DNA from: Parafrankia irregularis
Lineage (GTDB): Bacteria; Actinomycetota; Actinomycetes; Frankiales; Frankiaceae
DNA: 64,000 nucleotides
Assembly: GCF_001536285.1 (NCBI RefSeq)
Contig: NZ_FAOZ01000006.1
Span: 124,001-188,000, forward strand
Direction: 5' to 3'
Shown: piece after piece, positions 44,408 to 64,000 of the stretch
Layout of the letters: every line of letters starts with the position of its first letter
How positions within the stretch are numbered: the stretch's first letter is position 1
The notes under the pieces: generated by a model
What the model saw: the letters and a program-made list of their open reading frames with translations, nothing else
Database searches by the model: none
Told to the model about the DNA's origin: nothing
Position numbers and translations under genes: made by a program

Positions 44408-44452
44408 GGCGAGCGGCCTTCCTCGGGTCCCGACCTGACGGAATCCTGAACA

Positions 44453-44469
44453 TGGGATATCAGATCTTA
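44453..44469. promoter_or_regulatory. Palindromic operator upstream of the GMC gene
   Basis: TGGGATATCAGATCTTA matches the reverse complement of the site at 60610-60626 (TGAGATATCAGATCTCA) at 15 of 17 positions. A possible -10 hexamer TAAGAT overlaps one end on the minus strand. Likely bound by the cluster's GntR/FCD regulator. Confidence 0.6.
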
Positions 44470-49775: not shown

Positions 49776-49818
49776 CGGTTTGACCACCTGCTCCCTGCGT
49801 CGTGGAATCGATCAGCTG

Positions 49819-50541
49819 TCACGTGCCGGTTCGCGGGGCCGCCCGCGCGGTCCGCACGCCCGGGTCATCCGGGTCGAAGGCGGCGAGCTGGTCGGCCATC
49901 ACGCTGGTGACGTGCTCCCGCATGAGGCGCTCGGCGTCTCCCGGGTCACGGCGCACGATCGCCTCGTGGATCGCGCTGTGCTGGCGGACGGAGACCTCCA
50001 GCCGCCCGGGGATCGCCACGGTGAGGTTGCCGATCCGAACCAGATGATCACCGAGGTTCTCGATCATCTCGCGGATCCGCCGGTTGCGGGTCTGCCCGTA
50101 GATGACCCGGTCGAACGCCTCCAGCAGCTCGGGCAGCCCGTCCAGCTCACCCGCCGCCCAGGCCCGCTCACTGCCGCGGACCACCTTGGTCAGCTCGGCG
50201 AGGTCGGCGGCGCTGATGTGCACCGCGGCCTCCCTCGCGCAGGCGCCCTCCAGCAGCTCCCGCAGCTCGTAGATCTCCTTGAGGTCGTCCCGGTCGTAGC
50301 CGCAGACCACGGCGCCCTTGTAGGGCACGATCTCGACGAGCCGCTCCCGCTGCAGCCGCACCAGCGCCTCACGCAGCGGGGTCTTGCTCACCCCGAGCCG
50401 GCCGGCGAGCTCCGCCTCCCGCATCGGGTAGCCCGGCGGCAGCCGCAGGTCGACGATCTCCTGCTTCAGGCGCAGGTAGACGACGTCCTTGAGCTGCCGG
50501 TGCGGGGTCTCGTCGGCCGGCTGGGCCGAACGCTCAGCCAT
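49819..50541 (-). CDS. GntR-family regulator with FCD ligand domain
   Basis: 240 residues. N-terminal winged helix: YLRLKQEIVDLRLPPGYPM, LAGRLGVSKTPLREALVRLQ, LVEIVPYKGAVV. C-terminal FCD helical domain (YELRELLEGACAREAA, then the metal-ligand-like pattern EAFDRVIY, SVRQHSAIHEAIVRRD, LMREHV). FCD proteins bind carboxylates, often with a metal ion, and release DNA when the substrate appears. It sits in the middle of the catabolic cluster and is the best candidate to bind the palindromes at 44453, 60471 and 60610. Confidence 0.92.
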   Translation of the reverse strand: MAERSAQPADETPHRQLKDVVYLRLKQEIVDLRLPPGYPMREAELAGRLGVSKTPLREALVRLQRERLVEIVPYKGAVVCGYDRDDLKEIYELRELLEGACAREAAVHISAADLAELTKVVRGSERAWAAGELDGLPELLEAFDRVIYGQTRNRRIREMIENLGDHLVRIGNLTVAIPGRLEVSVRQHSAIHEAIVRRDPGDAERLMREHVTSVMADQLAAFDPDDPGVRTARAAPRTGT

Positions 50542-50710: not shown

Positions 50711-51724
50711 TCAACGCGCCAGCGCCTCCGCCCGGACGCCGAAGGCCGTGTCGAACGCCTCCCGGAACCGGGCGACGGTGCCCATCCGGTCGGCACCGAG
50801 CGGGAAGACGTTGACCGAGTCGACGCCGGCCGCGGCCAGCTCACGCAGCTGGGCGACGGTCCGTTCCTGGTTGCCGGACAGCGCCATCCGCCGGACGAAC
50901 TCGTCCGGCAGCAGTTCGGCCGCGGCGCCGGCCTCCTGGAACTCCCCGCCCGTGTAGCGCCGGCGGACCTCGTCGATCAGCGCCCGGTCCAGCCCGGCGA
51001 GCTCGCAGTACACCGGCGCCGTCTGCGGGAACCACGCGGCGATGCTGCGGGCGGCGGCGAGCGCCGCCTGCTCGTCCTCGTCGATCCGGCCGTAGGCGAA
51101 CACGGCCACGTGCGGACGCGCCGAGCGGCCCGCCGCCTCGACGCCGCGGTCGATGTGCTCCAGCGCGAACCGGATCCCGTCGGTGTGCAGGCCGGCGAGC
51201 AGGATCACCCCGTCGGCCACCCGGCCGGCCAGCTCCAGGGTCTTCGGCCCGCTCGCGGAGATGAACACCGGAATGTCGGACCGGGCCCCGAACCGCAGGT
51301 GGGCGTCGTGCAGCTCGAACCCCGCCGAGGTCTGGTCGACGTCCCCGCCGCGCAGCAGCGCGCGGATCGCGACGATCGAGTCCTCCAGGACGGCGAGCTT
51401 CGCGGGGCGCATCCCGAACGCCTCCAGCGGCCGGTCGCCGGCGCCGATGCCCAGGATGAAGCGCCCCTGCGCGATCTCGTCGACGGTCGCCGCCGCCACC
51501 GCGGTGATCCCCGGATGCCGGGTCAGCGGGTTCGTCACGGCCGTGCCGAGCAGCAGTTGGCTGCTCGCCCGCGCGGCCAGGGTGAGGTAGGCGTACGGGT
51601 TGCGGCTGTGCAGCGAGGAGTCCGTCAGCCACAGGTGGTCGAAACCGGAGCGCTCGACCTCGGCGACGTACGACTCGAAGACGGCAGGGGTGTCGACTCC
51701 CTGCAGCACCACTCCGCTACGCAT
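50711..51724 (-). CDS. Luciferase-like, probably F420-dependent oxidoreductase
   Basis: 337 residues with the LLM TIM-barrel pattern: GFDHLWLTDSSLHSRNPY, LLLGTAVTNPLTRHPGITA, GRFILGIGAGDRP, ALLRGG and PVFISASGPKTLELAGRVAD. The MER-like features (TDSSL-x-R-N-PY, GAGDRP) favour F420 over FMN as the cofactor; sequence alone does not prove this. ATG 51724 has AGGAG 8 bases upstream and overlaps the M20 gene by 8 bases. Likely reduces or oxidises a pathway intermediate. Confidence 0.88.
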   Translation of the reverse strand: MRSGVVLQGVDTPAVFESYVAEVERSGFDHLWLTDSSLHSRNPYAYLTLAARASSQLLLGTAVTNPLTRHPGITAVAAATVDEIAQGRFILGIGAGDRPLEAFGMRPAKLAVLEDSIVAIRALLRGGDVDQTSAGFELHDAHLRFGARSDIPVFISASGPKTLELAGRVADGVILLAGLHTDGIRFALEHIDRGVEAAGRSARPHVAVFAYGRIDEDEQAALAAARSIAAWFPQTAPVYCELAGLDRALIDEVRRRYTGGEFQEAGAAAELLPDEFVRRMALSGNQERTVAQLRELAAAGVDSVNVFPLGADRMGTVARFREAFDTAFGVRAEALAR

Positions 51725-53060
51725 CCCACTTGCTCCTGTCGGTCCGCGCGGCCTGCGCCGCGATGTCAGCCAGAGCGGCGGCTGGCGCCGCGGTGTCAGC
51801 CAGAGCGGCGGCCTGCGCCGCGGTGTCAGCCAGCGCGGCGAGGCCGTCCGCCACCTGTGCCAGGTCGATCCATTCGTCGATCGTGTGCTCGCGCTCGCCG
51901 TGGGTGATCCCGATGGTGATCGCCGGGATGCCGGCGGCGTAGGCGGCGTTCGCGTCGGTGCTGGCGGCATGTGTCCGGGCCGCCAGCCCGCGGCGGGCCA
52001 GCGCGGCGAAGGCGGCGGAGGCCAGCGGGTGTTCGGCCGGGATCCCGCCGGCCGGCCGGCGGCCGATCTCCCTGGCCTCGGCGGCCAGCTCCGCGCCCTG
52101 TTCCTCGATGACCAGCTCCTCGATGACCAGCCGGGCCTCCCGTTCCAGCCAGGCGAGTCCGGCGGCGGTGTCGGCGCGCAGGTCGACCTCGAAACGGCAG
52201 CTGGCCGCCCGGATGTTGATCGCCTCCCCGCCGGAGATCCGCCCGACGTTCACCGCGATCCGCCCAGCCACGCCGGCGCCTTCGGCGGCCTGCGGCGCGG
52301 CCAGGGCGGCGAGCCGGGAAACCATTCCCGCGGCCGCGTGCACGGCGCTCGGTGTCGCGGACCGCTCCCACGCGTGCCCGCCCGGTCCGGTCACCGTCAC
52401 CGCGAACCGGACCGAGCCGACTCCGGTCACGGTCACCCGGCCCAGATAGTTGCCCTCGACGGCGATCACCGCTCCGACCGGCACCGGCGGATCCGCGAGC
52501 GCCGCGGTGATGCCGGCCAGGTTGCCGACGCCCTCCTCCCCCACGGTCGCGAGCACCCACACCGGACGGGCCTGCCCGGCGCCCACCAGCTCGGCTTCGA
52601 GCAGCCGGGGCAGCTCGGCGAGCGCGGCGACGGCGATCGTGTCGTCACCGACACCGGGGCCGACCAGCCGCCCGTCGTGGCGGCGGGCACCGTGCTCGAC
52701 GTCCGGGCCGAACACCGTGTCCAGGTGGGCGGCGACCAGCACCGCCGGGCCCACGCCACGGCGGGCCAGCCCCCACACGTTGCCGGTCGGGTCGATGCGC
52801 ACCTCGGCGAGGCCGTCCGCCCGCCACCAGTCGGCGACGACCGCCGCCCGCGCGGCCTCGCCGAACGGCGGGGCCGGCAGCAGGCACAGCCGCTCCGTCC
52901 GCACGATCACCCGCTCGGCGGCACCGGCCAGCGGGCCGGGCGCACCCGCCGGCAGCTCGGGCACACCGGCGGGCTCCTCGCGCACACCGGCGGGCTGTTC
53001 CGTCGTGCCACCCCCGCCCCCGGGCCCGAGCGCGGCGGCTCCGATGCCATGGGCACTCAC
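51717..53060 (-). CDS. M20-family metallohydrolase
   Basis: 447 residues. Di-metal site complete: LVAAHLDTVFG (HxD), GVGDDTIAVAAL, TVGEEGVGNL (catalytic Glu-Glu), VEGNYLGRV and the late His in EREHTIDEWID. The inserted dimerisation domain follows FAVTVTGPGGHAWE. Relatives cut C-terminal amides, carbamoyl or acyl groups from amino acids. A Gly/Pro/Glu-rich N-terminal 50 residues and an Ala-Leu-Ala-Asp-Thr C-terminal repeat flank the fold. GTG 53060 overlaps the CoA-transferase stop (GTGA). Confidence 0.88.
   Translation of the reverse strand: MSAHGIGAAALGPGGGGGTTEQPAGVREEPAGVPELPAGAPGPLAGAAERVIVRTERLCLLPAPPFGEAARAAVVADWWRADGLAEVRIDPTGNVWGLARRGVGPAVLVAAHLDTVFGPDVEHGARRHDGRLVGPGVGDDTIAVAALAELPRLLEAELVGAGQARPVWVLATVGEEGVGNLAGITAALADPPVPVGAVIAVEGNYLGRVTVTGVGSVRFAVTVTGPGGHAWERSATPSAVHAAAGMVSRLAALAAPQAAEGAGVAGRIAVNVGRISGGEAINIRAASCRFEVDLRADTAAGLAWLEREARLVIEELVIEEQGAELAAEAREIGRRPAGGIPAEHPLASAAFAALARRGLAARTHAASTDANAAYAAGIPAITIGITHGEREHTIDEWIDLAQVADGLAALADTAAQAAALADTAAPAAALADIAAQAARTDRSKWDA
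51751..51840. repeat. Three 30-base tandem repeats at the 3' end of the M20 gene
   Basis: Three head-to-tail 30-base units starting at 51751, 51781 and 51811; the core CGCCGCG(A/G)TGTCAGCCAG is shared. They code the Ala/Leu/Asp/Thr-rich C-terminal repeat of the M20 protein. Confidence 0.9.
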
Positions 53061-54346
53061 CTGCCACCCCCGGCGGCGCTGGTCGTGCCGGTCGTCCCGG
53101 CCTGGATCGAGGCGTCGTGGATCGTGCCGGCGGCGTGCAGCTCGTCGATCTCGGGGTCGCTCAGCCCCGCCTCGCGCAGCACCGCGCGGGTGTGCTGGCC
53201 GAGGTCAGGCGCACCGGAGGGGAAGGGCAACGGCCCGGGGGCCCGCACCGGCACCGTCACCGCCCGGTAGGGCGAGCCGTCACCGGCACCGACCGTCGCC
53301 ACCGCGCCGATCGCCGCCGCCTGCGCCGAGGTCAGTGCCTCACCGACGTCGCGGACCAGGCCGGCCGGTACCCCGGCGGCCTCCAGCCGCGCCACCCAGG
53401 CGGGCGCGTCATCCGCGGCGAGCGCCTGCTCGATGCGGGCGGTGAGCGCGTCCCGGTTGCGGACCCGGTCGGCGTTGGTGGCGAACGCCGGATCGTCGAC
53501 GGCCTCGGGTACGCCGATCGTCGAGCACAGCCGCCGCCACAGCCCCTCGTTGCCCGCGCCGGCGAGGACCAGCTCGCCGGTACGGGCGCGGAACGCGCCG
53601 TAGGGTGCGAAGGCCGGCGAGTGGGTGCCCAGCCGGGAGGGGATCTCCCCCGCCGCGAAGAACGCCGAGGCCGGGGTGGTCAGGCCCGCGAGCGCGAACT
53701 CCAGCAGGGACGACGACACATGCCCGCCGAGGCCGGTCTCGGCCCGCCGCAGCAGGCCGGCCAGGATCCCGGTGACGCAGCAGATACCGGCGCCGACGTC
53801 GAGCAGCGGCGCGCCGACCTTCACCGGTCCCGATCCGGCCGTCCCGGTGACGCTCATCAGGCCGGCCTCGGCCTGCAGGATCAGGTCGAAGCCACCGCGG
53901 GCGGCGTCCGGGCCGGTCTGCCCGTAGCCGGACACCGATCCGTAGACGATCCGCGGGTGCCGGGCGAGCACCGCCGCGGCGTCCAGGCCGTACCGGGCGA
54001 GCGCGCCCGGCCGGGCGTTCTCGACGACCACGTCCGCGCCGGCGAGCAGCCGTTCCAGCGCCGCCTGCCCGGACGGCGCGCGCAGGTCGAGGGCGAGGCT
54101 GCGCTTGCCGTTGTTCAGGGAGAGGAAGAGCGCGGAGCGGTCGGCCACGGTGGCGGTCGCCTGGGCGCGGTAGGAGTCGCCACCGTCCGGTGGCTCGATC
54201 TTGACGACGTCCGCGCCGAGCGCGGCGAGCATCATCGTGGTGTAGGCGCCGGAGACGAACCGGGTGAGGTCGACGACCCGGACCCCGGCGAGCGGCGGCA
54301 CACCGCCGCCCAGCAGACCGCCATCCGGAACACCGCCGTTCACCAT
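53057..54346 (-). CDS. CaiB/BaiF class III CoA-transferase
   Basis: 429 residues. Recognised by VRVVDLTRFVSGAYTTMMLA, ALGADVVKIEPPDGGDSYR, SLNNGKRSLALDL, VENARPGALARYGLD and RGGFDLILQAEAGLM, which carries the Asp that forms the acyl-enzyme intermediate. The enzyme moves CoA from one carboxylic acid to another, here probably activating the substrate of the adjacent mutase. It overlaps the mutase large subunit by 7 bases. Residues 1-18 are a Gly-rich extension. Confidence 0.93.
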   Translation of the reverse strand: MVNGGVPDGGLLGGGVPPLAGVRVVDLTRFVSGAYTTMMLAALGADVVKIEPPDGGDSYRAQATATVADRSALFLSLNNGKRSLALDLRAPSGQAALERLLAGADVVVENARPGALARYGLDAAAVLARHPRIVYGSVSGYGQTGPDAARGGFDLILQAEAGLMSVTGTAGSGPVKVGAPLLDVGAGICCVTGILAGLLRRAETGLGGHVSSSLLEFALAGLTTPASAFFAAGEIPSRLGTHSPAFAPYGAFRARTGELVLAGAGNEGLWRRLCSTIGVPEAVDDPAFATNADRVRNRDALTARIEQALAADDAPAWVARLEAAGVPAGLVRDVGEALTSAQAAAIGAVATVGAGDGSPYRAVTVPVRAPGPLPFPSGAPDLGQHTRAVLREAGLSDPEIDELHAAGTIHDASIQAGTTGTTSAAGGGR

Positions 54347-55962
54347 GGCGCCGGCTCCCGGTACTCGCCGAACTCGGCCCGCATCAGGGCGTTGATCTCG
54401 CCGATCGTCGCGCCGGCCCGGGCGCAGTCCAGCAGCGCGGGCATCACGTTCGCGTCAGAGCTCAGCACCTTCGCCAGGTCCGCCAGGGCCGCCGCCGCGG
54501 CGGCGCCGTCGCGGGTGCGCAGGTGCTCGCGCAGCCGGTGGCGGGCGCGTTCCTGGGCGGACGGGTCCGGCTCGAACAGCCGCGGATCGGCGTCGGTGTC
54601 CGCGTCGTCGGTGTACCGGTTCACGCCGACCTTGACCCGGGTGCCGTCCACCAGCTCGCGTTCGGTGCGGTAGGCGGTCTTCGCGACCCAGCGCTGCGGG
54701 ATGCCCTCGGCCAGCATCGCCACCATGCCGCCGCCGGAGTCGATCCGCTCGATCAGGGCGAAGGCGCGCTCTTCGAGCTCGTCGGTGAGCGACTCGACGT
54801 AGTAGGAGCCGGCGAGTGGGTCGACGGTGCGGGTCACCCCGGACTCGTGCGCGACGATCTGCTGGGTGCGCAGGGCGAGGCGCACCGACTCCTCGCTGGG
54901 GATCTCCAGCGCCTCGTCCCAGCCCATCACGTGCACCGACTGTGCACCGCCGAGCACCGCCGCCAGGCAGGAGATCGTCGAGCGGACCACGTTGTTCAGC
55001 GGCTGCTGGGCGGTGAGGACCGTGCCGGAGCAGCCGGAGAAGAACCGCATCCGGGACGACTCGGGACGGGTCGCGCCGAACCGTTCGGTGGCGATCCGGT
55101 GCCACATCCGCCGCGCCGCCCGGACCTTCGCCACCTCCTCGAACAGGTCGAGGGTGGCGGAGAAGTGGAAGGACAGCCGCCCGGCGAAGCGGTCGAACGG
55201 CAGGCCGCGGCGGGTGATCTCCTCGGCGTAGGCGATCGCGGAGGCGAGCGCCAGGCCCAGCTCCTGCACCGCGTCGCTGCCGGCCTCCCGGACGTGGTAG
55301 CCGGTGATGGAGACCGGATTGAACCGGGGCAGATGCTCGGCGGCGAAGGCGACGACGTCACCGACGAGCCGCAGCGACGCCGCCGGCGGATAGATGTAGG
55401 TCTTGCGGGCGAGGAACTCCTTGAGCAGGTCGTTCTGCGTCGTGCCGGCGACCCGGTCGAACGCCACGCCCTGGCGTTCCGCCGCGACCAGGAAGAACGC
55501 GAGGATGACCGGGGCGGTCGCGTTGATCGTGTGGTTCACCGAGAGCTCGCCCAGCGGCAGCCCGTCGAACAGCCGCACCATGTCCTCGGCGGTGTCGATG
55601 GCGACCCCCACCCGGCCCACCTCGGCCTCGGCCATCGGGTCCGTCGAGTCGTAGCCGAGCTGGGTGGGCAGGTCGAAGGCGACCGACAGCGCGGTCTGGC
55701 CCTGGGAGAGCAGATAGCGGTAGCGGGCGTTGGCGTCCTCGGCCGACCCGAAGCCGGCGTACTGACGCATCGTCCACAGCTTTTCCCGGTACATCGTCGG
55801 GTACGGGCCGCGGGTGTACGGGGCGCCGCCGGGCGGGCCGAGCCGTTCGGCCAGGCCCGGGGCGAGGTCGTCCTGCCCGTAGACCAGGTGGACGGGAACG
55901 CCGGAGTCGGTGCGGGCGGGCAGCACTCCCGCCGGTTCGCGATCGGGCCGCGACGCGGTCAT
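54340..55962 (-). CDS. B12-dependent acyl-CoA mutase, large subunit
   Basis: 540 residues, the size of stand-alone large subunits (isobutyryl-CoA or 2-hydroxyacyl-CoA mutase type); there is no C-terminal B12 domain, unlike methylmalonyl-CoA mutase MutB. The substrate barrel is clear: RGPYPTMYREKLWTMRQYAG, LSVAFDLPTQLGYDST, NHTINATAPVILAFF, ITGYHVREAGSDAVQELG and RTQQIVAHESGVTRTVDPLA. Its carbon-skeleton substrate (methylmalonyl, isobutyryl, hydroxyisobutyryl) depends on a few barrel residues I cannot assign by eye. ATG 55962 overlaps the small-subunit stop (ATGA). Confidence 0.9.
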   Translation of the reverse strand: MTASRPDREPAGVLPARTDSGVPVHLVYGQDDLAPGLAERLGPPGGAPYTRGPYPTMYREKLWTMRQYAGFGSAEDANARYRYLLSQGQTALSVAFDLPTQLGYDSTDPMAEAEVGRVGVAIDTAEDMVRLFDGLPLGELSVNHTINATAPVILAFFLVAAERQGVAFDRVAGTTQNDLLKEFLARKTYIYPPAASLRLVGDVVAFAAEHLPRFNPVSITGYHVREAGSDAVQELGLALASAIAYAEEITRRGLPFDRFAGRLSFHFSATLDLFEEVAKVRAARRMWHRIATERFGATRPESSRMRFFSGCSGTVLTAQQPLNNVVRSTISCLAAVLGGAQSVHVMGWDEALEIPSEESVRLALRTQQIVAHESGVTRTVDPLAGSYYVESLTDELEERAFALIERIDSGGGMVAMLAEGIPQRWVAKTAYRTERELVDGTRVKVGVNRYTDDADTDADPRLFEPDPSAQERARHRLREHLRTRDGAAAAAALADLAKVLSSDANVMPALLDCARAGATIGEINALMRAEFGEYREPAPW

Positions 55963-56435
55963 CCGGCCACCGCCTCCCGGGTCGCCGCGGCGAGCTCCCC
56001 GGTCGTCGTGGCGAGCCCGAGGACCGTCGCCACAACCTCCGGCAGTGGGGTACCGACACCGTGGACCGCCGCGACGCCCAGCTCGCGCAGGGTCGCCGCG
56101 TCCGTCGCGCCGATGGTGCCGCCGACCGTCACGGGGATGTCGGTGAGCCCGGCGGCGTCCCGTTCGGCGAGCAGCGCCCGGGTCAGCGCGAGGTGCGCGC
56201 CGGAGAGCACCGAGATGCCGATGACGTCCACGTCCTCGTCCCGTGCCGCGGCGACGATCTCGGCGACGGAGCGGCGCAGCCCCAGGTAGATCACCTCGGC
56301 GCCGGCGTCGCGCAGCGCCATGCCGATCACCTTGATGCCCCGGTCGTGGCCGTCGAGGCCGGGCTTGGCGAGCAGTACCCGCGCCGGCCGGCCGCCGGGC
56401 ACCTTCCCGGCCGCGCTCACGCCGACTGCACTCAC
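55959..56435 (-). CDS. B12-binding small subunit of the acyl-CoA mutase
   Basis: 158 residues. The cobalamin site KPGLDGHDRGIKVIG contains the DxHxxG motif whose His replaces the lower ligand of B12; SVLSGAHL and VTVGGTIGA complete the binding loops. Separate small subunits of this size are typical of IcmB and HcmB. GTG 56435 overlaps the M20 stop by 4 bases. With the large subunit it should form the radical mutase. No MeaB-type G-protein chaperone gene is in the window. Confidence 0.93.
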   Translation of the reverse strand: MSAVGVSAAGKVPGGRPARVLLAKPGLDGHDRGIKVIGMALRDAGAEVIYLGLRRSVAEIVAAARDEDVDVIGISVLSGAHLALTRALLAERDAAGLTDIPVTVGGTIGATDAATLRELGVAAVHGVGTPLPEVVATVLGLATTTGELAAATREAVAG

Positions 56436-57649
56436 GCCGACTCTGACGCGAGCGCGAGCGCGACGAAGGTCGCGTAGGTGCGGGTCGCCTCGACGAGGTC
56501 GTCCACGCTGAGGTGCTCGTCGGGGCAGTACACCGGCTCGCCGCCCGGCCCGAAGATGACGGTGGGGACCTTGTGGCCGAAGCTCGCGGTGTCACCGAGC
56601 CAGCCGGCGGCGGAAAGTTTCGGCGTCACCCCGCCGCGCACGGCGCCGAGCGCGCTGCTCATCAGCGTCACCACCTCGTCGTCCGGACCGGCCAGGTAGC
56701 CGTTCTTGACGTCGGCGAGCACCACGTCGGCGGCGAAGCGCGGCTCACGGGCGAGTGCCCGGGCCAGGCAGCGGTCGATCTCGGCGCGGACCTCCTCGAC
56801 GCTAACTCCCGGCTGCGGGCGGCAGTCGACCCGGATCACGCACTCGTCCGGGATCGCCGACGGGCCGCCGGGTGGCAGCCCGCCGTAGATCCGTCCGGGC
56901 GCCATGTAGGTCTCCGGGCCGAACAGGTTGGCGACCCAGTCCTCGATCGACGGGATGAGCCGGGAGGCGTCCAGTTCCAGCACGGCGTGTGCGGCGAGCA
57001 TGTTCGCGTTGACTGCGAGCGGCTTGTGGCAGGTGTGCGCGGTTCGGCCGCGGGTCGTGATGTCGAAGTAGTACCGCCCCCGGTGGCCGAGGAAGATCTC
57101 GTTGTCGGACAGCTCGCCGAGCACGCACAGGTCGGCGGCGTACTCGTCGAAGTAGGCGATCGAGCCGAGCTGGTCGCCCATGTGGTCGGAGACGGCCGCC
57201 ATCGCTACCGTGCCGCTGACCGGCAGCCCGCTGGCCCGCACCGCCTGGATCGCGACGATCTGGCAGACCAGCGCCGCCTTCATGTCCATGATCCCGTGCC
57301 CGTAGACGTTGCCGTCAAGGAGCTCGCCGGAGAACGGGCTGGTCACCGTCCAGCCGTGGGCGACGGGCTTGGTGTCCAGGTGGCCGGTGAGCACCACACG
57401 CCGGCCCGGGCCGAAGTACACCTCGCCGACCGCGTTCGGCCGGTCCGGCAGCACCGCCTGCAGGTCGACCGCCGTGAAGTCGAGCTCCTTCATGGTCTGC
57501 GCGAGGAACCGGGCCAGCTCTCCCTCCTCGCCGAGCACGCTGGGAATGCGGCAGACCTGCTGGACGAGCTCGACGAGCTCGTCGGTGCGGATCTGCGCGG
57601 CGACCTTCTCCGCGAGGGCTGTTGCCGACGTTCCGGCGGGCGTGCTCAT
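56432..57649 (-). CDS. M20-family deacylase (ArgE/DapE/YlmB-like) with altered acid pair
   Basis: 405 residues. The fold and metal residues are largely kept: VVLTGHLDTKPV (HxD), GHGIMDMKAAL (bridging Asp), CVLGELSDNEIF, and PDEHLSVDDL with the last His. The usual catalytic Glu-Glu segment (DEE) reads SDHMGD, so the base is changed. The gene is the first of a 4-base-overlap chain running into the mutase genes. A YlmB-like enzyme removes a formyl or acyl group from an aminopyrimidine in thiamin salvage, and this gene lies next to a THI5-type importer. ATG 57649 has AAGGAG upstream. Confidence 0.85.
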   Translation of the reverse strand: MSTPAGTSATALAEKVAAQIRTDELVELVQQVCRIPSVLGEEGELARFLAQTMKELDFTAVDLQAVLPDRPNAVGEVYFGPGRRVVLTGHLDTKPVAHGWTVTSPFSGELLDGNVYGHGIMDMKAALVCQIVAIQAVRASGLPVSGTVAMAAVSDHMGDQLGSIAYFDEYAADLCVLGELSDNEIFLGHRGRYYFDITTRGRTAHTCHKPLAVNANMLAAHAVLELDASRLIPSIEDWVANLFGPETYMAPGRIYGGLPPGGPSAIPDECVIRVDCRPQPGVSVEEVRAEIDRCLARALAREPRFAADVVLADVKNGYLAGPDDEVVTLMSSALGAVRGGVTPKLSAAGWLGDTASFGHKVPTVIFGPGGEPVYCPDEHLSVDDLVEATRTYATFVALALASESA

Positions 57650-57721
57650 GGGGGTGGATCTCCTTCGATCGCGGGACGGACGAGGGTCACCGGCCGAGAC
57701 TGGGCGGGGGTCTGGGGTCGT

Positions 57722-57803
57722 CTGAGGTGGCGCAGCCTGGATCTGAGGTGGCGCGGCCTGGATCCGCTCGGTGCGGCCTGGATCCGCTCGGTGCGGCCTG
57801 GAT
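57722..57803. repeat. 20-21 base tandem repeat between importer and M20 genes
   Basis: Four units: two of CTGAGGTGGCGCAGCCTGG-AT type (21 bases) and two identical CCGCTCGGTGCGGCCTGGAT (20 bases). They lie in the 212-base gap after the binding-protein gene, and are non-coding. Confidence 0.8.
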
Positions 57804-57861
57804 CGGCGCGGATCGAGGTCGGACCGGCCGGCCCGGTCGACGGGCCGGCCCGTCCGCCGCC

Positions 57862-58881
57862 TCAGCTGCCCGAGCCGGCCGGCAGGTAGTCGTTCGTGAC
57901 GACGTCGGACGCGGTGACGGCCTTGTCGATGAGCCCCTCGGACTTCATCCAGTCGGCGAACGCCTGCCAGTCGGAGACGTCCTGCTGGCCGAATCCCTTG
58001 TCGTTCTTCAGCAGTGGCACGGTGGCGTCGATCATCTTCGGCACCTGCGCCTCGTCGTAGCCGTCGGCCTCGGCAGCGATGATCTTCGATGCGCTGGCCG
58101 GATCGGCGATCACGTCGGCGTTGCCCCTGGCGAGCCCCGACAGGAAGTCGCGGATGAGCTTCTGGTAGGCCGGGTCCGACTTCAGCCGGCTGGCCTGCGC
58201 GATGATGACCAGCTCGTCGTAGTCCGGCACGCCCGCGTCGGTGACCGGGATGATCGTGGGATTCAGGCCCTGGTCGGTCATCATGACGCCCTCGATGTTG
58301 CGGTAGGCGCCGAGCGTGGCGTCGACGTTGCCGGCGACCATCGCCGCCATCAGGTCCTGGCCGATGTTGACGGACTTCACCGACGCCGGGTCGATGTTGT
58401 TCCTGGCGAGGATCGTCGTCAGGAACGCGTCGTTGGTCTGCAGGCCGGGCGTGCCGATGGTGTGCCCGGCCAGGTCGGCGACGGACTTGACTGGCGAGTC
58501 CCCGTTCGCCATGACCGACAGCAGCGCCGTCGGGATCAGCGCGCCGACGGCCACGACGTCCAGGCCCTGTGAGCCGGAGATGATCGTCTCGGGCTCGTAG
58601 GAGATGCCGATGTCGATCTTCCCGGTGCTGACCAGCTTCGTCGGGTCCGAGGGGTCGGACGGCGGCTGGAAGGTCACGTCGAGGCCCGCGTCCTCGAAGT
58701 AGCCCGCCTCCTTGGCCGTGTACAGCGCCACATGGTCGGGGTTCGGGTCCCAGTCGAGCAGGACCGTCGTCTTCCGCAGTGCCTCGCCGTCGGAGGAGCT
58801 GTCATCGCTCCCGCAGGCGACGAGCGGGAGGGTGACGGCGAGCAGAGCCGCCACACCGCCGGTCAAACGCTTGGCTCTCAT
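57862..58881 (-). CDS. THI5/NMT1-type ABC transporter binding lipoprotein
   Basis: 339 residues. Signal peptide with lipobox LVAC, then GSDDSSSDG: an exported lipoprotein. The mature start TTVLLDWDPNPDHVALYTAK, GYFEDAGLDVTF, SDPSDPTKLVSTGKIDIGIS and the following YEPE are characteristic of ThiY/NMT1-like proteins that bind thiamin-pyrimidine precursors such as formylaminopyrimidine. Related SsuA/TauA proteins bind other small molecules, so the ligand is open. The gene follows the permease with ATGA overlap and is last in the importer operon. Confidence 0.9.
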   Translation of the reverse strand: MRAKRLTGGVAALLAVTLPLVACGSDDSSSDGEALRKTTVLLDWDPNPDHVALYTAKEAGYFEDAGLDVTFQPPSDPSDPTKLVSTGKIDIGISYEPETIISGSQGLDVVAVGALIPTALLSVMANGDSPVKSVADLAGHTIGTPGLQTNDAFLTTILARNNIDPASVKSVNIGQDLMAAMVAGNVDATLGAYRNIEGVMMTDQGLNPTIIPVTDAGVPDYDELVIIAQASRLKSDPAYQKLIRDFLSGLARGNADVIADPASASKIIAAEADGYDEAQVPKMIDATVPLLKNDKGFGQQDVSDWQAFADWMKSEGLIDKAVTASDVVTNDYLPAGSGS

Positions 58882-59654
58882 CTGTTCTTGCCTTCCTTGG
58901 CCCACGGGACCAGGACGTTTTCCAGGAGGGTGACGAGGACGAACAGGGCCACCGACATCGCGGTGAGCAGGGCGATCGCGGCGAAGACGAGGGCGCTCTG
59001 CAGCTGCGGGACGGCCTGGCGCATCACGTGGCCAAGCCCGTCCGTGGAGCCGGAGTACTCGCCGAACACCGCCGCTGTCGCCGCGTAGGCCGCGGACAGC
59101 CGCAGGCCGGTGAACATCGAGGGGAGCGCCGACGGGAACTCGACGCGCAGGAAGATCGACCAGCGGTTGCCGTACAGGGTGCGCATCATCCGGGTGAGCT
59201 GCGGGTCGACGGCCGCCAGCCCGTCCAGCGTGCCGACGACGATCGGGAAGAAGCACAGCAGCGCGACCAGGATGAGCTTCGGAGTGATCGAGTAGCCGAA
59301 GATGATCGCGAGAATCGGCGCGATCACCACGACCGGGATGGTCTGCGACCCGATCAACAGCGGGTAGATCGCGCGGCGGGCGATCGCCGAGAAGTGCAGC
59401 GCGCAGGCGATCAGCAACCCGGCGGCCACCGCGATGGCGAAGCCGACGACGACCTCCTTGAGCGTCACCCAGGTCGCGCTGGACAGGGTGCGGTCCCAGC
59501 GGTCGATCAGGGTGGTGATCACCTCGTCCGGCGCCGGCAGGATGTACTCCTCGACCCCGAAGACGGAGGTGGCCAGCTTCCACGCACCGAGCACGGCGAG
59601 CACGATCACGCCGGCCGGGCCGTACTGGCGCAGCGACTCCTTGAGGCGGGTCAC
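58878..59654 (-). CDS. ABC transporter permease (ThiX/SsuC type)
   Basis: 258 residues with six membrane helices. The cytoplasmic EAA loop for ATPase contact reads RTLYGNRWSIFLRVEFPSAL, then PSMFTGLRLSAAYAATAAVFGE. Other family marks are YILPAPDEVITTL and IGSQTIPVVVIAPILAIIFG. GTG 59654 has GGAGGG 5 bases upstream and begins one base after the ATPase stop. Works with the neighbouring binding protein and ATPase. Confidence 0.92.
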   Translation of the reverse strand: MTRLKESLRQYGPAGVIVLAVLGAWKLATSVFGVEEYILPAPDEVITTLIDRWDRTLSSATWVTLKEVVVGFAIAVAAGLLIACALHFSAIARRAIYPLLIGSQTIPVVVIAPILAIIFGYSITPKLILVALLCFFPIVVGTLDGLAAVDPQLTRMMRTLYGNRWSIFLRVEFPSALPSMFTGLRLSAAYAATAAVFGEYSGSTDGLGHVMRQAVPQLQSALVFAAIALLTAMSVALFVLVTLLENVLVPWAKEGKNR

Positions 59655-59655
59655 G

Positions 59656-60441
59656 TCAGCCCTCCAGGTGGGCCAGCAGGGCGTCCCGCAGCCGGACGAA
59701 CTCCGGCGTCGCGAGCAGCTCACGGCGGGAACCGGCGGGCGGCAGCTCGACGGGCAGCCGCGCGGCGACCCGGCCCGGGCGGCTGGACATCACCACCACC
59801 TCGTGGCTGAGCAGCAGCGCCTCCTCCACGTCGTGGGTGACCAGGACGACGGTGCGCGGCTCGGCGTCGAGGGTGTCGCGCAGCCAGTCCTGCACCCCGG
59901 CGCGGGTGATCGAGTCCAGCGCGCCGAACGGCTCGTCGAGCAGCAGCACGTCCTTGTCCGCGACGAGGGTGCGCAGGAAGGAAACCCGCTGGCGCATGCC
60001 GCCGGACAGCTCGTAGGGCCGGCGGTCCTCGAAGCCGGCCAGCCCGAAGCGGGCGAACAGCGGCCGCACCCGCTCCCGTGCCTCGCGCCGGGAGACGCCC
60101 CGGTTCTCCAGCGAGACGCAGGCGTTCGCGAGCACCGTGCGCCAGGGCAGGAGCAGATCCCGCTGCGGCATCCAGGCACACCGGGCGAGCCGGGCGGCCG
60201 GCGCGGTGTCACCGAGTACCTCGACGACGCCCTCGTCCGGGTTCTCCAGCCCGCTGACCATGCTCAGGACGGTCGACTTGCCGCAGCCGCTGGGGCCCAC
60301 GATGCCCAGCCGGGTGTGCCGCGGCACAGCCAGGTCAAGCCCCGCCACCGCGACGACGTCGCCGTAGCGACGGGTGACGCCGGACAGCCGGATGCCGTCG
60401 CCATGGACGGCCGCAGCCGTCTCACCGTGCCCCTGGGCCAT
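59656..60441 (-). CDS. ABC transporter ATPase (ThiZ/SsuB type)
   Basis: 261 residues. Walker A GPSGCGKST, Q-loop WMPQRDLLLPWRTV, signature LSGGMRQRVSFLRTLV, Walker B VLLLDEPFGALD, H-loop VTHDVEEALLLS. The Q-loop form and the D-loop are typical of SsuB/TauB/ThiZ importers. ATG 60441 has GGAGGAGGT 5 bases upstream. First gene of the importer operon; the operator at 60471-60485 lies 30 bases upstream. Confidence 0.94.
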   Translation of the reverse strand: MAQGHGETAAAVHGDGIRLSGVTRRYGDVVAVAGLDLAVPRHTRLGIVGPSGCGKSTVLSMVSGLENPDEGVVEVLGDTAPAARLARCAWMPQRDLLLPWRTVLANACVSLENRGVSRREARERVRPLFARFGLAGFEDRRPYELSGGMRQRVSFLRTLVADKDVLLLDEPFGALDSITRAGVQDWLRDTLDAEPRTVVLVTHDVEEALLLSHEVVVMSSRPGRVAARLPVELPPAGSRRELLATPEFVRLRDALLAHLEG

Positions 60442-60463
60442 GCCGCACCTCCTCCCGTGGCGA

Positions 60464-60485
60464 TGAGATCTGAGATCTGATCTCA
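60464..60485. promoter_or_regulatory. Operator in front of the importer operon
   Basis: TGAGATC-T-GATCTCA (60471-60485) is a perfect 7-bp palindrome; a further TGAGATC copy abuts it at 60464-60470. It shares TGAGATCTGAT with the site at 60610. On the minus strand TTGACC (60523-60528) lies upstream as a possible -35; the matching -10 (TTCTAT) is weak. Confidence 0.65.
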
Positions 60486-60576
60486 AAGGAACGACCAGAT
60501 AGAACCCGCTCCACGCGTTACGGGTCAAGGTTTCCAGATGTCGATGCTGTAACGTTTTCGCTGGTCAGATGCATAA

Positions 60577-60606
60577 TTGACCGCTTCTCGGCCGCCTGGT
60601 TACCCT
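60577..60606 (+). promoter_or_regulatory. Promoter of the aldehyde dehydrogenase operon
   Basis: TTGACC (60577-60582), an 18-base spacer and TACCCT (60601-60606, TANNNT) make a good actinobacterial housekeeping promoter. The expected start near 60613 falls within the operator at 60610-60626, an arrangement suited to repression. Confidence 0.6.
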
Positions 60607-60609
60607 CCC

Positions 60610-60626
60610 TGAGATCTGATATCTCA
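60610..60626. promoter_or_regulatory. Operator over the aldehyde dehydrogenase transcription start
   Basis: TGAGATCTGATATCTCA: TGAGAT and ATCTCA arms with a 5-base centre. It differs from the site at 60471 by a two-base insertion (AT) in the second half, and in reverse complement from the site at 44453 by two bases. It lies 17 bases before GTG 60643. Confidence 0.7.
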
Positions 60627-60642
60627 TCGTCGGGAGCCGCCC

Positions 60643-62136
60643 GTGAAGGCCGATCTGCTCGCATCCGTGCGCACCTTCGTCGCCACCGAGCACCAGCTCT
60701 TTGTCGACGGCGAGCCACGCCCGGCACACGGCGGCGCCCGGTTCGACGTCCAGGACCCGGCCAGCGGCGCGGTGCTGACGACGGCCGCGCGCGCCGGCGC
60801 CGCGGACGTCGACGACGCGGTCGCCGCCGCCCGGGCCGCCCTGCCCGGCTGGCGGCGGCTGCCCGCCGGCGAGCGCGGCCGCCTGCTGTGGGAGCTCGGC
60901 AACCGCATCGAGGCCCTCGCCGCGGAGTTCCTCCAGCTGGAGGCCCTCGACAACGGAAAGCCGACCGGCGAGGCGGCGGCCGTGGACGTGCCCCTGACGG
61001 CGAACGGCTTCCGCTACTTCGGCGGGCTCGCGACCAAGATCGAGGGCGCCACCATCCCGACGTACGGCGGCCTGCCGGTGCACGTCAGCACCCGCCGGGA
61101 GCCCGTCGGCGTCGTCGCGGCGATCATCCCGTGGAACTTCCCCCTGCTGAACTGCGCCTACAAGCTGGCGCCCGCGCTGGCCGCCGGCAACACCGTCGTG
61201 CTCAAGCCGGCCGAGCAGACCCCGCTCTCCGCGCTGCGGCTGGCCCAGCTCGCCGCCGAGGTCGGCTTTCCCCCCGGCGTCCTCAACGTGCTGACCGGCT
61301 TCGGGCCGGAGGCCGGAGCCCCACTGGCCGCCCACCCGGACGTCGACAAGATCACCTTCACCGGGGAGAACGCGACCGGCCGCAGCGTTCTGGCGGCGTC
61401 CGGCGGGACGATGAAGCGGGTGTCGCTGGAGCTCGGCGGCAAGTCACCGAGCCTCGTCTTCGCCGACGCCGACCTCGACGCCGCGGTCGAGGGCACCTTC
61501 GGCGCCGTCTACTTCAACCAGGGGCAGTGCTGCGTCGCCGGCGCGCGGATCTTCGTCCAGCGCCCCGTGTACGACGCGTTCGTCGAGGCGCTCGCGACCC
61601 GCGTCCACCAGGTGCGGCTCGGTTCCGGGCTCGACCCGGCGACGACCATGGGCCCGCTGGTCAGCGCGTCGCAGCGGGACCGCGTGCTCGGCCTGGTCCG
61701 GTCCGGCCTCGCCGCCGGGGCGAAGCCGGTCGTCGGCGGGGCCACCGACCCGGCCGAGGTCGACGGCTGCCCGGGCGGCTACTTCGTCGAACCGACCCTG
61801 TTCGTCGACGCGCCGCCGGACAGCGACATCATGCGCCGGGAGATCTTCGGGCCCGTCGGCATGGTCACCCCCTTCGACACCGAGCAGGAGGCGGTGGCGC
61901 TGGCCAACGACACGGAGTTCGGGCTGGCCGCGGGGGTGTGGACGCGCGACGTCGGCCGCGCCCACCGGGTGAGCGACGAGATCCGGGCCGGTGTGGTGTG
62001 GGTGAACATCTACGGCTGGTTCGACGTCGCCGTGCCGTTCGGCGGGTTCCGGGCCAGCGGCTACGGCAAGGAACACGGGATCGAGGCACTCGACGCCTAC
62101 CTGCAGACCAAGGCCGTCTGGATGGGCCTGTCTTGA
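60643..62136 (+). CDS. NAD(P)+-dependent aldehyde dehydrogenase
   Basis: 497 residues, the typical family length. Catalytic and cofactor motifs: IIPWNFPLLNC, LKPAEQTPLSALRLAQLA, FTGENATGRSV, the general base in ELGGKSPSLVF, the nucleophile Cys in NQGQCCVAGARIF, and PFGGFRASGYGKEHG near the end. The NAD-binding turn has ENAT where STxxG is usual. GTG 60643 has GGGAG 7 bases upstream. It could oxidise the aldehyde made by the GMC enzyme or by the Rieske/luciferase-like enzymes. First gene of the plus-strand operon. Confidence 0.95.
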   Translation: MKADLLASVRTFVATEHQLFVDGEPRPAHGGARFDVQDPASGAVLTTAARAGAADVDDAVAAARAALPGWRRLPAGERGRLLWELGNRIEALAAEFLQLEALDNGKPTGEAAAVDVPLTANGFRYFGGLATKIEGATIPTYGGLPVHVSTRREPVGVVAAIIPWNFPLLNCAYKLAPALAAGNTVVLKPAEQTPLSALRLAQLAAEVGFPPGVLNVLTGFGPEAGAPLAAHPDVDKITFTGENATGRSVLAASGGTMKRVSLELGGKSPSLVFADADLDAAVEGTFGAVYFNQGQCCVAGARIFVQRPVYDAFVEALATRVHQVRLGSGLDPATTMGPLVSASQRDRVLGLVRSGLAAGAKPVVGGATDPAEVDGCPGGYFVEPTLFVDAPPDSDIMRREIFGPVGMVTPFDTEQEAVALANDTEFGLAAGVWTRDVGRAHRVSDEIRAGVVWVNIYGWFDVAVPFGGFRASGYGKEHGIEALDAYLQTKAVWMGLS

Positions 62137-62879
62137 ACGGCTCACCACGGCTGCGGAACGAGCCTGACCTGCGGAACGAACTGGATCTGCGGGACCAGCC
62201 GGGCCTGCCGCTCGCCGAGTTCCTGCGCGGGCGGGCCGGCGCGGTATGGGCGACGCTGCTCGACCATCCGTTCCCCGCCGAGATGGCCGCCGGCACGCTC
62301 CCGCCGGCGAAGTTCCGCTTCTACATCGACCAGAACCTGCTCTACCTGCCGGAGTACGCCCGGGTGCTGGCCGCGGGCGCGACCGTCGCCCGGGACGACG
62401 CCGAGCTGCGTCGTTTCAGCTCGGCGCTGGTGAACATCACCGACACCGAGATCCCGCAGAACGAGCGGCTGCGCGCCGCGATCGCCCGGCTGGGCGCCGG
62501 CCCGTCAGCCCACCACGACGTGCTGGCGCCGGCCGCGCAGGCGTACGTCGCGTACCTGGCGATGGTCGCGGCCCGCTTCGGCCCGGCGGAGATCTTCGCC
62601 GCGATCCTCCCCTGTGCCTGGTCCTACGGCCAGATCGGGCGCCGGCTGAGCCCGTCGGCGGTCGACCACCCGGTCTACGCCGACTGGCTCCGCTTCTGGT
62701 CCACCGACGAGGCCACCGCCTACGAGGCCGAACTGATCGCGCACGCGAACACGCTGGACGACCGGCCCGACCAGCCCGACCGGGAGCGCCTGGCGACGAT
62801 CTTCCTGACCGCGGCCCGCTTCGAGCGCGCCTTCTGGGACATGGCCTACCACACCGAGCACTGGGCGGACCTGGCGTGA
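62133..62879 (+). CDS. TenA/THI-4 family protein
   Basis: 248 residues. The TenA helical fold is shown by HPFPAEMAAGTLPPAKFRFY followed by IDQNLLYLPEYARVLA, then AYVAYLAMVA, ILPCAWSYGQIG with the active-site Cys of TenA_C members, and FWDMAYHTEHW. TenA hydrolyses aminopyrimidine compounds in thiamin salvage; PqqC-like relatives act on other substrates. The likely start is TTG 62133 overlapping the aldehyde dehydrogenase stop (TTGA); no ATG or GTG precedes the fold. The first ~30 residues repeat Leu-Arg-Asn-Glu/Asp. Stop overlaps the next start (GTGA). Confidence 0.82.
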   Translation: MNGSPRLRNEPDLRNELDLRDQPGLPLAEFLRGRAGAVWATLLDHPFPAEMAAGTLPPAKFRFYIDQNLLYLPEYARVLAAGATVARDDAELRRFSSALVNITDTEIPQNERLRAAIARLGAGPSAHHDVLAPAAQAYVAYLAMVAARFGPAEIFAAILPCAWSYGQIGRRLSPSAVDHPVYADWLRFWSTDEATAYEAELIAHANTLDDRPDQPDRERLATIFLTAARFERAFWDMAYHTEHWADLA

Positions 62880-64000
62880 CGATCCTCAGCCCCACTCCGG
62901 CCGGCACCCCCACCCCGGCCGGCGGCGCGGCCCCAACCGGCGGCGCCGTCCTGAGCGGCGGCATCGTCCTGAGCGGCGGTCTCACCGAGGTGGCGGACGG
63001 GCGCGACCCGGACGCGGGCCTGCTGACCACCGCGCGGCGCGAGGAGTACGACGCGGCCTGGCTGGCCGCGGCCCGGCGCAGCTGGCATCCGGTGGCCCGT
63101 GGGCAGGACGTCCCGGTGGGCCGGCCGGTCCCGGTCACCCTGCTCGGGTCGGAACTGGTGCTGTGGCGCCGTGCGGACGGGCAGCTCGGCCTGCTGGCGG
63201 GGAGCTGCGTGCACCGCGGAACCCGGCTCGCCGACGGCTCGGTCACCGCCGCCGGGGACCTGCGCTGCCCCTACCACGGCTGGGAGTTCCGGGCCGACGG
63301 CTCCTGCGCGCTGGTCCCCCAGCTCGGCTCCGACCGGGTGCCGGCCCGGATCCGCCAGCCCGCGGCCCAGGTCGACGAGCACGCCGGCCTGGTCTGGGCC
63401 TGCCTGGCCCCGCCCGGCGAGGAGGCGACCGCGAGGCCGACGCTGCCCGAGGCGGACCTCCCCGCCTTCCGCCGGCACATCGGCGCACCGATCCACTGGC
63501 GGGCGCAGGCCAGCCGGCACATCGAGAACTTCTGCGACATCGCGCACTTCTCGATCCTGCACACGTCGTCGTTCGGCAACCCCGACGTGCTCGGGGTGGA
63601 CCGCTACGGCGTGCGGCGCACCGAGACGGGCCAGCTGCTGCTGCACTACGACTACCCAGGGCGCGACTACCTGGCCGGCACCGCCGGCCAGGTCGGGCCC
63701 GAGATGCTGATCACCCTGGACTACGAGGTCCAGCTGCCGTTCACGGTCACCCTGCGGGAGATCAACGGCCCGGGCACCCTGGTGTTCACCGCGCTGTGTC
63801 CGGTCGACGCCACCAGCTGCGTCGTGTTCTGGCTGTCGGCCCGCACGGACGGGGTGGAGCTGGACGGGCCGCGGGTGGAGCGGGCCGAGACCGAGATCCT
63901 GGAGGAGGACCGGCTGATCGTGGAGCGCCAGCGCCCGGCCCGGATGCCACTGGCCCGCGGCGGCGAGGCGCACCTGCGGTTCGACCGCTTCTCCGTCGCC
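62876..64000 (+). CDS. Rieske non-heme iron oxygenase, alpha subunit (3' end outside window)
   Basis: 375 codons are visible with no stop, so the gene runs past the window. After a Pro/Gly/Thr-rich 35 residues comes the Rieske [2Fe-2S] domain, CVHRG and CPYHGW, which supply Cys-x-His and Cys-x-x-His. The catalytic domain has the mononuclear iron site ENFCDIAHFSILH (Asn-x2-Asp-x2-His-x4-His). It resembles the vanillate/carnitine demethylase-like group of single-component alpha subunits. Hydroxylation or O/N-dealkylation of the pathway substrate is likely. GTG 62876 overlaps the tenA-like stop. The reductase partner is not in view. Confidence 0.9.
   Translation, partial: MTILSPTPAGTPTPAGGAAPTGGAVLSGGIVLSGGLTEVADGRDPDAGLLTTARREEYDAAWLAAARRSWHPVARGQDVPVGRPVPVTLLGSELVLWRRADGQLGLLAGSCVHRGTRLADGSVTAAGDLRCPYHGWEFRADGSCALVPQLGSDRVPARIRQPAAQVDEHAGLVWACLAPPGEEATARPTLPEADLPAFRRHIGAPIHWRAQASRHIENFCDIAHFSILHTSSFGNPDVLGVDRYGVRRTETGQLLLHYDYPGRDYLAGTAGQVGPEMLITLDYEVQLPFTVTLREINGPGTLVFTALCPVDATSCVVFWLSARTDGVELDGPRVERAETEILEEDRLIVERQRPARMPLARGGEAHLRFDRFSVA

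Follow-up and report, generated by a model that had tools for sequence, protein, structure and literature searches.

We analysed a 64,000-nucleotide window of the Parafrankia irregularis genome (G000; 9.54 Mb in 82 contigs), spanning positions 124001-188000 of contig 6, in which the genes for an ATP-binding cassette (ABC) importer of the ThiXYZ type and for a TenA protein stand among genes for degradative-type enzymes. Positions given below are those of the window unless a contig or locus is named. Fourteen minus-strand genes lie between 60441 and 44663, starting with the ATPase gene and continuing with those for the permease, the binding protein, M20a, the mutase small subunit, the mutase large subunit, the CoA-transferase, M20b, the LLM protein, the GntR/FCD regulator, AmH1b, the M29-like protein, AmH1a and, last, AmH2. 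Adjacent genes overlap at 9 of the 13 junctions of this run, with gaps of about 31 to 212 bases at the other four. The run is followed by a GMC oxidoreductase gene (43010-44407), and the genes for an aldehyde dehydrogenase, TenA and a Rieske protein are divergent from it. The features are as follows.

43010..44407, minus strand: GMC oxidoreductase, candidate 5-hydroxymethyl to 5-formyl oxidase (PF00732/PF05199)
44453..44469, minus strand: operator copy in front of the GMC gene, differing from TGAGATCTGATATCTCA at 2 positions (pattern search)
44663..45673, minus strand: Amidohydro_2 protein AmH2, candidate 5-carboxypyrimidine decarboxylase (PF04909)
45774..47333, minus strand: Amidohydro_1 protein AmH1a, deaminase/hydrolase-like (PF01979)
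47314..48381, minus strand: M29-like metallohydrolase, distantly similar to NicX (match to NicX structure 7cn3)
48378..49787, minus strand: Amidohydro_1 protein AmH1b, candidate 4-aminopyrimidine deaminase (PF01979)
49819..50541, minus strand: GntR/FCD regulator, presumed owner of the operators (PF00392, PF07729)
50711..51724, minus strand: LLM-fold protein resembling F420-dependent reductases (PF00296)
51717..53060, minus strand: M20 hydrolase b, M20b (PF01546, PF07687)
53057..54346, minus strand: class III CoA-transferase (PF02515)
54340..55962, minus strand: B12-dependent acyl-CoA mutase, large subunit (PF01642)
55959..56435, minus strand: B12-binding mutase, small subunit (PF02310, TIGR00640)
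56432..57649, minus strand: M20 hydrolase a, M20a, candidate deformylase (PF01546, PF07687)
57862..58881, minus strand: ThiY/NMT1-type substrate-binding protein (PF09084, 5e-60)
58878..59723, minus strand: ABC permease, ThiX-like (PF00528)
59656..60441, minus strand: ABC ATPase, ThiZ-like (PF00005)
60464..60487, no strand assigned: overlapping operator copies upstream of the ATPase gene (pattern search)
60610..60626, no strand assigned: operator TGAGATCTGATATCTCA upstream of the aldehyde dehydrogenase gene (pattern search)
60643..62136, plus strand: aldehyde dehydrogenase (PF00171)
62133..62879, plus strand: TenA with active-site Asp to Asn, nucleophile Cys and Glu kept (TIGR04306, above cut-off)
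62879..64000, plus strand: Rieske oxygenase, VanA_C type (PF00355, PF19112), ending at contig position 188054, 54 bases beyond the window

An earlier note on this DNA had described the importer, an M20 enzyme, the aldehyde dehydrogenase and TenA, joined to a Rieske oxygenase, a CoA-transferase and an acyl-CoA mutase, and had proposed that salvage enzymes are used here to degrade a pyrimidine-like or other nitrogenous compound. Each of these genes was found, the mutase being B12-dependent.

The importer has the binding protein, permease and ATPase expected of formylaminopyrimidine salvage. The closest solved match of the binding protein is 3ix1, the N-formyl-4-amino-5-aminomethyl-2-methylpyrimidine binding protein (1.4e-43), followed by 4nmy and the THI5/THI13 enzymes, with a sulfonate binder at 3e-05. 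Uptake and degradation of a sulfonate or taurine would draw on the SsuA and TauA models among the three NCBIfam matches of the binding protein (TIGR01728, 88.9 bits) and on the SsuC, TauC and TauB names among those of the permease and ATPase; however, the binding protein's three matches and the permease and ATPase matches listed are all below their cut-offs, the comparison with Protein Data Bank structures puts the pyrimidine binder about 38 orders of magnitude ahead, and the LLM protein is nearest to F420-dependent reductases, not to sulfonate monooxygenases. We set this explanation aside as highly improbable, since it draws on family names below cut-off.

We then compared the binding protein with 35 genomes of the order. 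Some match was present at 1e-10 in 29 and a clear orthologue (56-100% identity) in 24, the window's own genome included. In the 12 genomes of group g2 (Frankia-type) the orthologue is 56-61% identical, and a TenA gene adjoins it in all 12. In 10 of them a thiamin pyrophosphate (TPP) riboswitch precedes the binding-protein gene by 1.9-2.3 kb on its own contig and strand, and no riboswitch was listed on the importer contig of the other two (G006 and G007). All eight genomes of group g7 carry the importer; one of them (G034) has a riboswitch before it, and none has a TenA match at 1e-10 anywhere in the genome. In the sole g4 genome (G015), the riboswitch and TenA are on contigs other than that of the importer. 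Because the importer orthologues in g2 stand beside TenA and a riboswitch, the importer appears to come from a thiamin-pyrimidine setting. Its family and orthology mark it as probably of the thiamin-pyrimidine type, in keeping with the pyrimidine-like compound that had been one of the predictions. In the G034 locus (L068), we observed that the riboswitch (C66:1535-1658) directly precedes the ThiY gene (1777-2781), and that neither a permease nor an ATPase was matched on that short contig.

The cluster had been described as having no TPP riboswitch, and the searches bore this out: none was found across the window at the Rfam gathering score, and none within 44000-64000 even to E = 10. A whole-genome search (E 0.001; 150 of 340 first-look candidates scored) found two, both on other contigs, with scores of 52.1 and 50.8 bits, just below the gathering score of 54.3. 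One (L002:1501-1622) precedes thiC and the other (L003:1501-1614) lies by thiG/thiH, these genes being recognised from their translations. TPP riboswitches in this family often fall slightly below the Rfam gathering score, and 12 of 27 relatives have only sub-threshold matches; such riboswitches would be overlooked by annotation with the default cut-off. Of the marks of formylaminopyrimidine salvage, both riboswitch control and linkage to thi genes are absent, as had been noted before, and the neighbours beyond the salvage-type parts are degradative-type enzymes by Pfam and NCBIfam. The importer is outside riboswitch control here, as in most g7 genomes.

In place of a riboswitch, the cluster carries a palindrome, TGAGAT-N5-ATCTCA, at 60610-60626; relatives of it that overlap one another occupy 60464-60487, and 44453-44469 is the third site. 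The pattern searched, TGAGATCTGATATCTCA, was copied from 60610, so the match there is by construction and the other matches are not; with up to 3 mismatches it gave six match rows at three places, compared with a mean of 0.00 in 100 shuffles. The copy at 44453-44469 is separated from the GMC start codon by 45 bases. Copies of one palindrome are thereby found at three units, namely the operon of the ATPase, that of the aldehyde dehydrogenase, and the GMC gene. Similar copies occur in the corresponding intergenic region of two other genomes of the genus, G020 and G021, and the searched pattern was absent from the gene sets scanned outside the genus. The operators had been attributed to a GntR-type protein. 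The GntR protein at 49819-50541 presumably binds them, judging by its position, and the importer presumably belongs to its regulon. GntR homologues (39-59% identity) are present in five of the eight related gene sets outside the genus that are described next.

Within the genus, the gene set is carried by G020, on two contigs, and by G021; the G020 stretches fetched hold no GMC gene. In G017-G019, also of this genus, neither a TenA nor a close orthologue of the binding protein was matched. Beyond the genus we found related sets in Nakamurella leprariae (L073), Nocardioides caldifontis (L074), G254, G311, G276, G325, G598 and G540, and these eight share differing subsets of the genes. The recurring parts are TenA, alcohol- and aldehyde-oxidising enzymes, deaminase-like and decarboxylase-like amidohydrolases, M29-like and M20 hydrolases, and an F420-type reductase. 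G311 has AmH2, AmH1a, M29-like, AmH1b, GntR, LLM and M20b genes in the same order as the window (46-75% identity), with an aldehyde dehydrogenase and two TenAs on a second contig. The G254 set holds at least two GntR genes, an aldehyde dehydrogenase, M20a (75%), LLM (61%) and M29-like (65%) homologues, an amidase, an aminotransferase, LLM monooxygenases, an importer, two TenAs, AmH1b, GMC and AmH2, as well as a RutA-like monooxygenase (232 bits against a cut-off of 498.3). G325 has only AmH2 and AmH1a, at a contig end, and G276 only importer parts, an aldehyde dehydrogenase and TenA. Aldehyde dehydrogenase homologues (40-67%) are found in seven of the eight sets, and M20b homologues (46-54%) in G311 and Nocardioides. 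The GMC protein, which scores 246.7 against the MftG model (cut-off 387.45), was matched in Parafrankia, Nakamurella and G254, the latter two with homologues of 52-53% identity; a zinc alcohol dehydrogenase gene lies near TenA or the aldehyde dehydrogenase in Nocardioides and G276 (by Pfam) and in G540 and G598 (by eye, from translations).

The distribution of the gene set is thin and patchy. In 393 genomes sampled from the class, TenA (E <= 1e-30) was found in six and AmH2 (E <= 1e-60) in six, with five in common, three of them of this genus; at the level of the phylum, 3 of 396 genomes have AmH2, the window's own included. A search of G311's family (2 of 17 genomes) and of G598's order (2 of 27) yielded no new gene sets, and the AmH2 protein found nothing in a plasmid collection at 1e-40. 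The cluster as first described stands for its named genes and needs amending in its extent: the shared set reaches as far as 43010, where the GMC gene lies, and among the loci fetched only those of Parafrankia had matches to the mutase, CoA-transferase and Rieske genes. We also considered dividing the sets into two kinds of lower pathway, hydrolytic and RutA-type, and dropped this because the upstream part of the G254 set also holds LLM, M29-like and M20a genes. Beside the M29-like gene of G254 (L081:792-3307) we noticed an amidase and a class I/II aminotransferase (by Pfam), which are possible further pathway steps.

The window's TenA passes the NCBI thiaminase II equivalog TIGR04306 (134.4 bits against a cut-off of 130) and keeps the equivalents of Bacillus subtilis TenA Cys135, Tyr47 and Glu205, numbered by alignment to solved TenAs and the literature. 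At the position of Asp44 it has Asn. We aligned 62 TenAs and dropped seven duplicates of loci already present, leaving 55 distinct proteins; partial matches at L015, L020 and L021 and five places without a locus were left out, and the L094 TenA lacks its N-terminus yet covers residue 44. Position 44 is Asn in eight and Asp in 47 of this non-random sample, which was drawn from the window's order, from the TIGR04306 matches that ranked best in the class, and from the gene sets. All eight Asn proteins come from the gene sets (the window, G020, G021, Nakamurella, G276, G311, G254 and G540). The Nakamurella, Nocardioides, G276, G311 and G254 sets each have a second TenA, and this one keeps Asp. In a maximum-likelihood tree built with the residue-44 column included, the eight lie in a group of 10 (support 99/96), whose two Asp members are the Nocardioides gene-set TenA and the second G540 TenA; the tree requires residue 44 to change twice. 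On this evidence from sequence and tree, the window TenA is a member of a separate group and more than a salvage enzyme reused. The suggestion that salvage enzymes serve catabolism thus gains from the recurrence of subsets of the genes in eight genomes outside the genus and has to be qualified for TenA.

The position is a substrate-binding one. In the passages cited from PMC5623701, the equivalent Asp43 carboxylate of a thiaminase structure hydrogen-bonds amino groups of hydroxymethylpyrimidine phosphate, and the activity of B. subtilis TenA D44A is significantly decreased. For thymidylate synthases, the passages cited describe Asn as pairing with a 4-oxo and Asp with a 4-amino pyrimidine (PMC8670742, PMC6400193); exchange of Asn for Asp switches preference from dUMP to dCMP (PMC8670742), and D179N in the T4 dCMP hydroxymethylase lowers kcat by up to about 3600-fold (PMC6400193). 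By analogy with these enzymes, Asn44 points to a 4-oxo substrate, and the TenA may possibly act on the deaminated ring.

These results bear on whether the cluster could serve ordinary salvage of the thiamin pyrimidine, with riboswitch control merely lost. The importer, M20 enzyme and TenA are all salvage parts, and this TenA is the genome's sole TENA_THI-4 match. Nevertheless, thiC and thiG/H are in the genome, the cluster has no riboswitch, TenA has Asn where Asp binds hydroxymethylpyrimidine (HMP), and the linked genes are degradative, several of them recurring together in other families. We consider ordinary salvage improbable.

AmH2 is 67-99% identical to proteins of nine other loci, seven of them outside the genus, and its metal-type residues H6, H8, H192, H227 and D284 are invariant in the 10 sequences. 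Of its 22 matches with solved structures, 12 carry the name of a decarboxylase; the top one (3irs) is uncharacterised, and some are hydratases. Decarboxylases likewise lead its fold matches, which lend weak support because the model is partial (mean predicted local distance difference test (pLDDT) score 65.6; query template modelling score 0.39-0.52 in the 50 matches listed). AmH1a and AmH1b are, by sequence family, amidohydrolases of the deaminase/chlorohydrolase type. Each has a 5-methylthioadenosine/S-adenosylhomocysteine deaminase as its best solved match (for AmH1b, 4f0r at 8.4e-47), and the metal-motif His, Glu and Asp residues of AmH1a are kept in the homologues that cover them. AmH1b is 66-97% identical in eight other loci, with the same motif residues kept in the seven sequences long enough to span all four motifs, the eighth being incomplete.

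The protein at 47314-48381 had no Pfam or NCBIfam match at 0.001, and its structure model is poor (mean pLDDT 53.9). It aligns to the dioxygenase NicX (7cn3) over most of its length at E 5e-9. The iron ligands of NicX are His265, His318 and Asp320, and M29-like proteins have an E/E/H/HxD ligand set. His318 and Asp320 (HxD) are kept in the window protein, the His265 position is occupied by Glu, and the E/E/H/HxD set is invariant in five aligned sequences, which makes a hydrolase likelier than a dioxygenase. We rejected a NicX-type dioxygenase on these grounds, one iron ligand being missing and the M29-like set retained.

The LLM protein has F420-dependent methylene-tetrahydromethanopterin (methylene-H4MPT) reductases of the Mer type as its best solved matches, and the 25 families listed for it, out of 26, do not include RutA. 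M20a, called YlmB-like in the earlier note, is an M20 protein of the ArgE/DapE type by Pfam and can be read no further (TIGR01910, 154.6 against a cut-off of 217.6); weak YlmB matches are reported as generic M20 proteins in the part of PMC10470507 cited here.

The mutase large subunit has 4r3u, a 2-hydroxyisobutyryl-CoA mutase, as its best solved match (503 bits), ahead of human methylmalonyl-CoA mutase (441 bits). In the former enzyme, HcmA, Ile90 and Asp117 replace a Tyr and an Ala of methylmalonyl-CoA mutase. The window protein carries RQYAGF and SVAFDL, as the methylmalonyl-CoA mutase rows do, and with specificity residues of that type a 2-hydroxyisobutyryl-CoA mutase was rejected.

The Rieske gene lies behind TenA in the window genome and in G020, and its lack of a match in G021 suggests a late addition. 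Its place directly behind TenA, and its VanA_C type, could indicate that the cluster gets rid of compounds that act against thiamin, for example the antivitamin bacimethrin (2-methoxy-HMP), with the Rieske enzyme demethylating the methoxy group and the other enzymes degrading the ring. The methoxy idea derives from the VanA family name, however, and the gene is unmatched in the G021 locus and in the fetched loci outside the genus, so antivitamin demethylation cannot be the function that the sets share. We regard this explanation as very doubtful.

Taken together, the comparisons support the interpretation first drawn from the sequence. We think it fairly probable that the cluster is a GntR-controlled catabolic regulon for the use of thiamin pyrimidine (HMP, aminomethyl-HMP or its N-formyl form) as food. 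More tentatively, one possible course is that the ring would undergo oxidation, then decarboxylation and F420-dependent reduction, before hydrolysis yields acetate, ammonia and a beta-alanine-type unit. The route that we propose uses each shared enzyme once, and its substrate, order and products are conjectural. The ThiXYZ-type importer would take up the pyrimidine, and M20a might strip the N-formyl group. AmH1b, to judge by its family, would convert the 4-amino to a 4-oxo group, and the Asn44 TenA would remove the amino group of the 5-aminomethyl substituent as ammonia, probably after the ring has been deaminated. GMC or an alcohol dehydrogenase, with the aldehyde dehydrogenase, could then yield the 5-carboxylate for putative decarboxylation by AmH2, and the F420-type LLM reductase would reduce the ring. 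AmH1a, the M29-like enzyme and M20b would finally cut three C-N bonds, one each, to give acetate, ammonia and a beta-alanine-type C3 unit.

Several observations weigh against this catabolic reading. G325 and G598, which have AmH2 and AmH1a, have no TenA match at all, and G276, with its Asn TenA, has no AmH2 match. AmH1a, M29-like, F420-type LLM and M20b genes are unmatched in the Nakamurella locus as fetched, and in the stretches fetched no single set outside the genus holds all the enzymes of the proposed route. Asn can also pair with a 4-aminopyrimidine; the Nocardioides gene-set TenA retains Asp, and G540 has one Asn and one Asp TenA of the group. The solved relatives of AmH2 include hydratases, hydrolases and oxygenases, which makes the name decarboxylase insecure. 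The route offers no secure role for the mutase, CoA-transferase and Rieske proteins of Parafrankia. Finally, identity to the window's binding protein is only 25-29% for those encoded in the Nakamurella, Nocardioides and G254 sets and 39% for that of G540, so the importer may have been recruited separately.

The same divergence of the binding proteins, to 25-39%, would suit a catabolic regulon for another nitrogen heterocycle, such as a plant or antibiotic pyrimidine or a pyridine, with the importer and TenA drawn from thiamin salvage families. The distinct TenA group with its changed substrate-binding residue and the extra oxygenase, mutase and CoA-transferase genes of Parafrankia also fit such a compound. 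On the other hand, the binding protein is orthologous to the riboswitch-controlled one of g2 and has a formylaminopyrimidine binder as its nearest match of known structure, and TenA retains the Cys135 and Glu205 equivalents. We judge another heterocycle rather unlikely and prefer thiamin pyrimidine as the substrate.

Thiamin and its pyrimidine are scarce, shared metabolites, and little is known of what becomes of them apart from salvage. The breakdown of thiamine by bacteria was a subject of older biochemical studies. Literature searches within open-licence PMC papers turned up none that, by its title or the start of its abstract, concerns a catabolic gene cluster for thiamin pyrimidine, which is not proof of absence. 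New in this analysis are a gene set that recurs, an importer whose origin is linked to a riboswitch, and a TenA lineage in which Asp is replaced by Asn. If thiamin pyrimidine is indeed consumed as food, AmH2 together with an Asn TenA would be a marker of a vitamin sink in soil and other habitats, and caution would be due before annotating every ThiXYZ-TenA set as salvage. The Asn/Asp exchange in TenA offers a one-residue test of 4-amino versus 4-oxo pyrimidine reading, and the idea is testable by one enzyme assay. Elsewhere in the window, positions 1-30000 hold apparent core genes (uvrC, uvrA, uvrB, polA and the yvcK/whiA group, by eye from translations).

Among known systems, NicX, the 2,5-dihydroxypyridine 5,6-dioxygenase, resembles the M29-like protein in its alignment over most of the length and its HxD motif, and differs at the His265 position, where the window protein has Glu, and in the window protein's M29 aminopeptidase-like ligand arrangement. 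AmH2 belongs to the same family as the Amidohydro_2 decarboxylases for 2-amino-3-carboxymuconate semialdehyde (ACMSD), 2,3-dihydroxybenzoate and 5-carboxyvanillate, of which isoorotate decarboxylase is a further member; AmH2, however, shows about 14-22% identity in the fold matches, and hydratases are equally near. In the Rut pathway, through RutA, and in the reductive route for uracil and thymine, the ring is oxygenated or reduced and C-N bonds are then hydrolysed. The proposed route would follow the same overall logic, and the G254 set holds a RutA-like LLM protein; in contrast, the window's own LLM protein is nearest to methylene-H4MPT reductases, and the ring would bear 2-methyl, 4-amino and 5-hydroxymethyl groups.

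The ATPase-permease-ThiY-TenA operon of g2 has an orthologous transporter: the binding protein is 56-61% identical in 12 genomes, and in five g2 loci that we compared the permease reaches 74-79% and the ATPase 57-69%. Its TenA is only about 30% identical to the window's and keeps Asp44, and no other cluster gene was matched beside it in those five loci. Formylaminopyrimidine salvage via ThiXYZ, YlmB and TenA, with TPP riboswitches, is described in the parts of PMC5627462 and PMC10470507 cited here. With the Bacillus form of this salvage the Parafrankia cluster shares a ThiY-type binding protein with permease and ATPase, an M20 hydrolase and a TenA with the Cys135 and Glu205 equivalents. It differs in having neither a TPP riboswitch nor thi genes, and in carrying instead a GntR/FCD gene with palindromic operators, a TenA in which Asp44 is replaced by Asn, and linked degradative enzymes.

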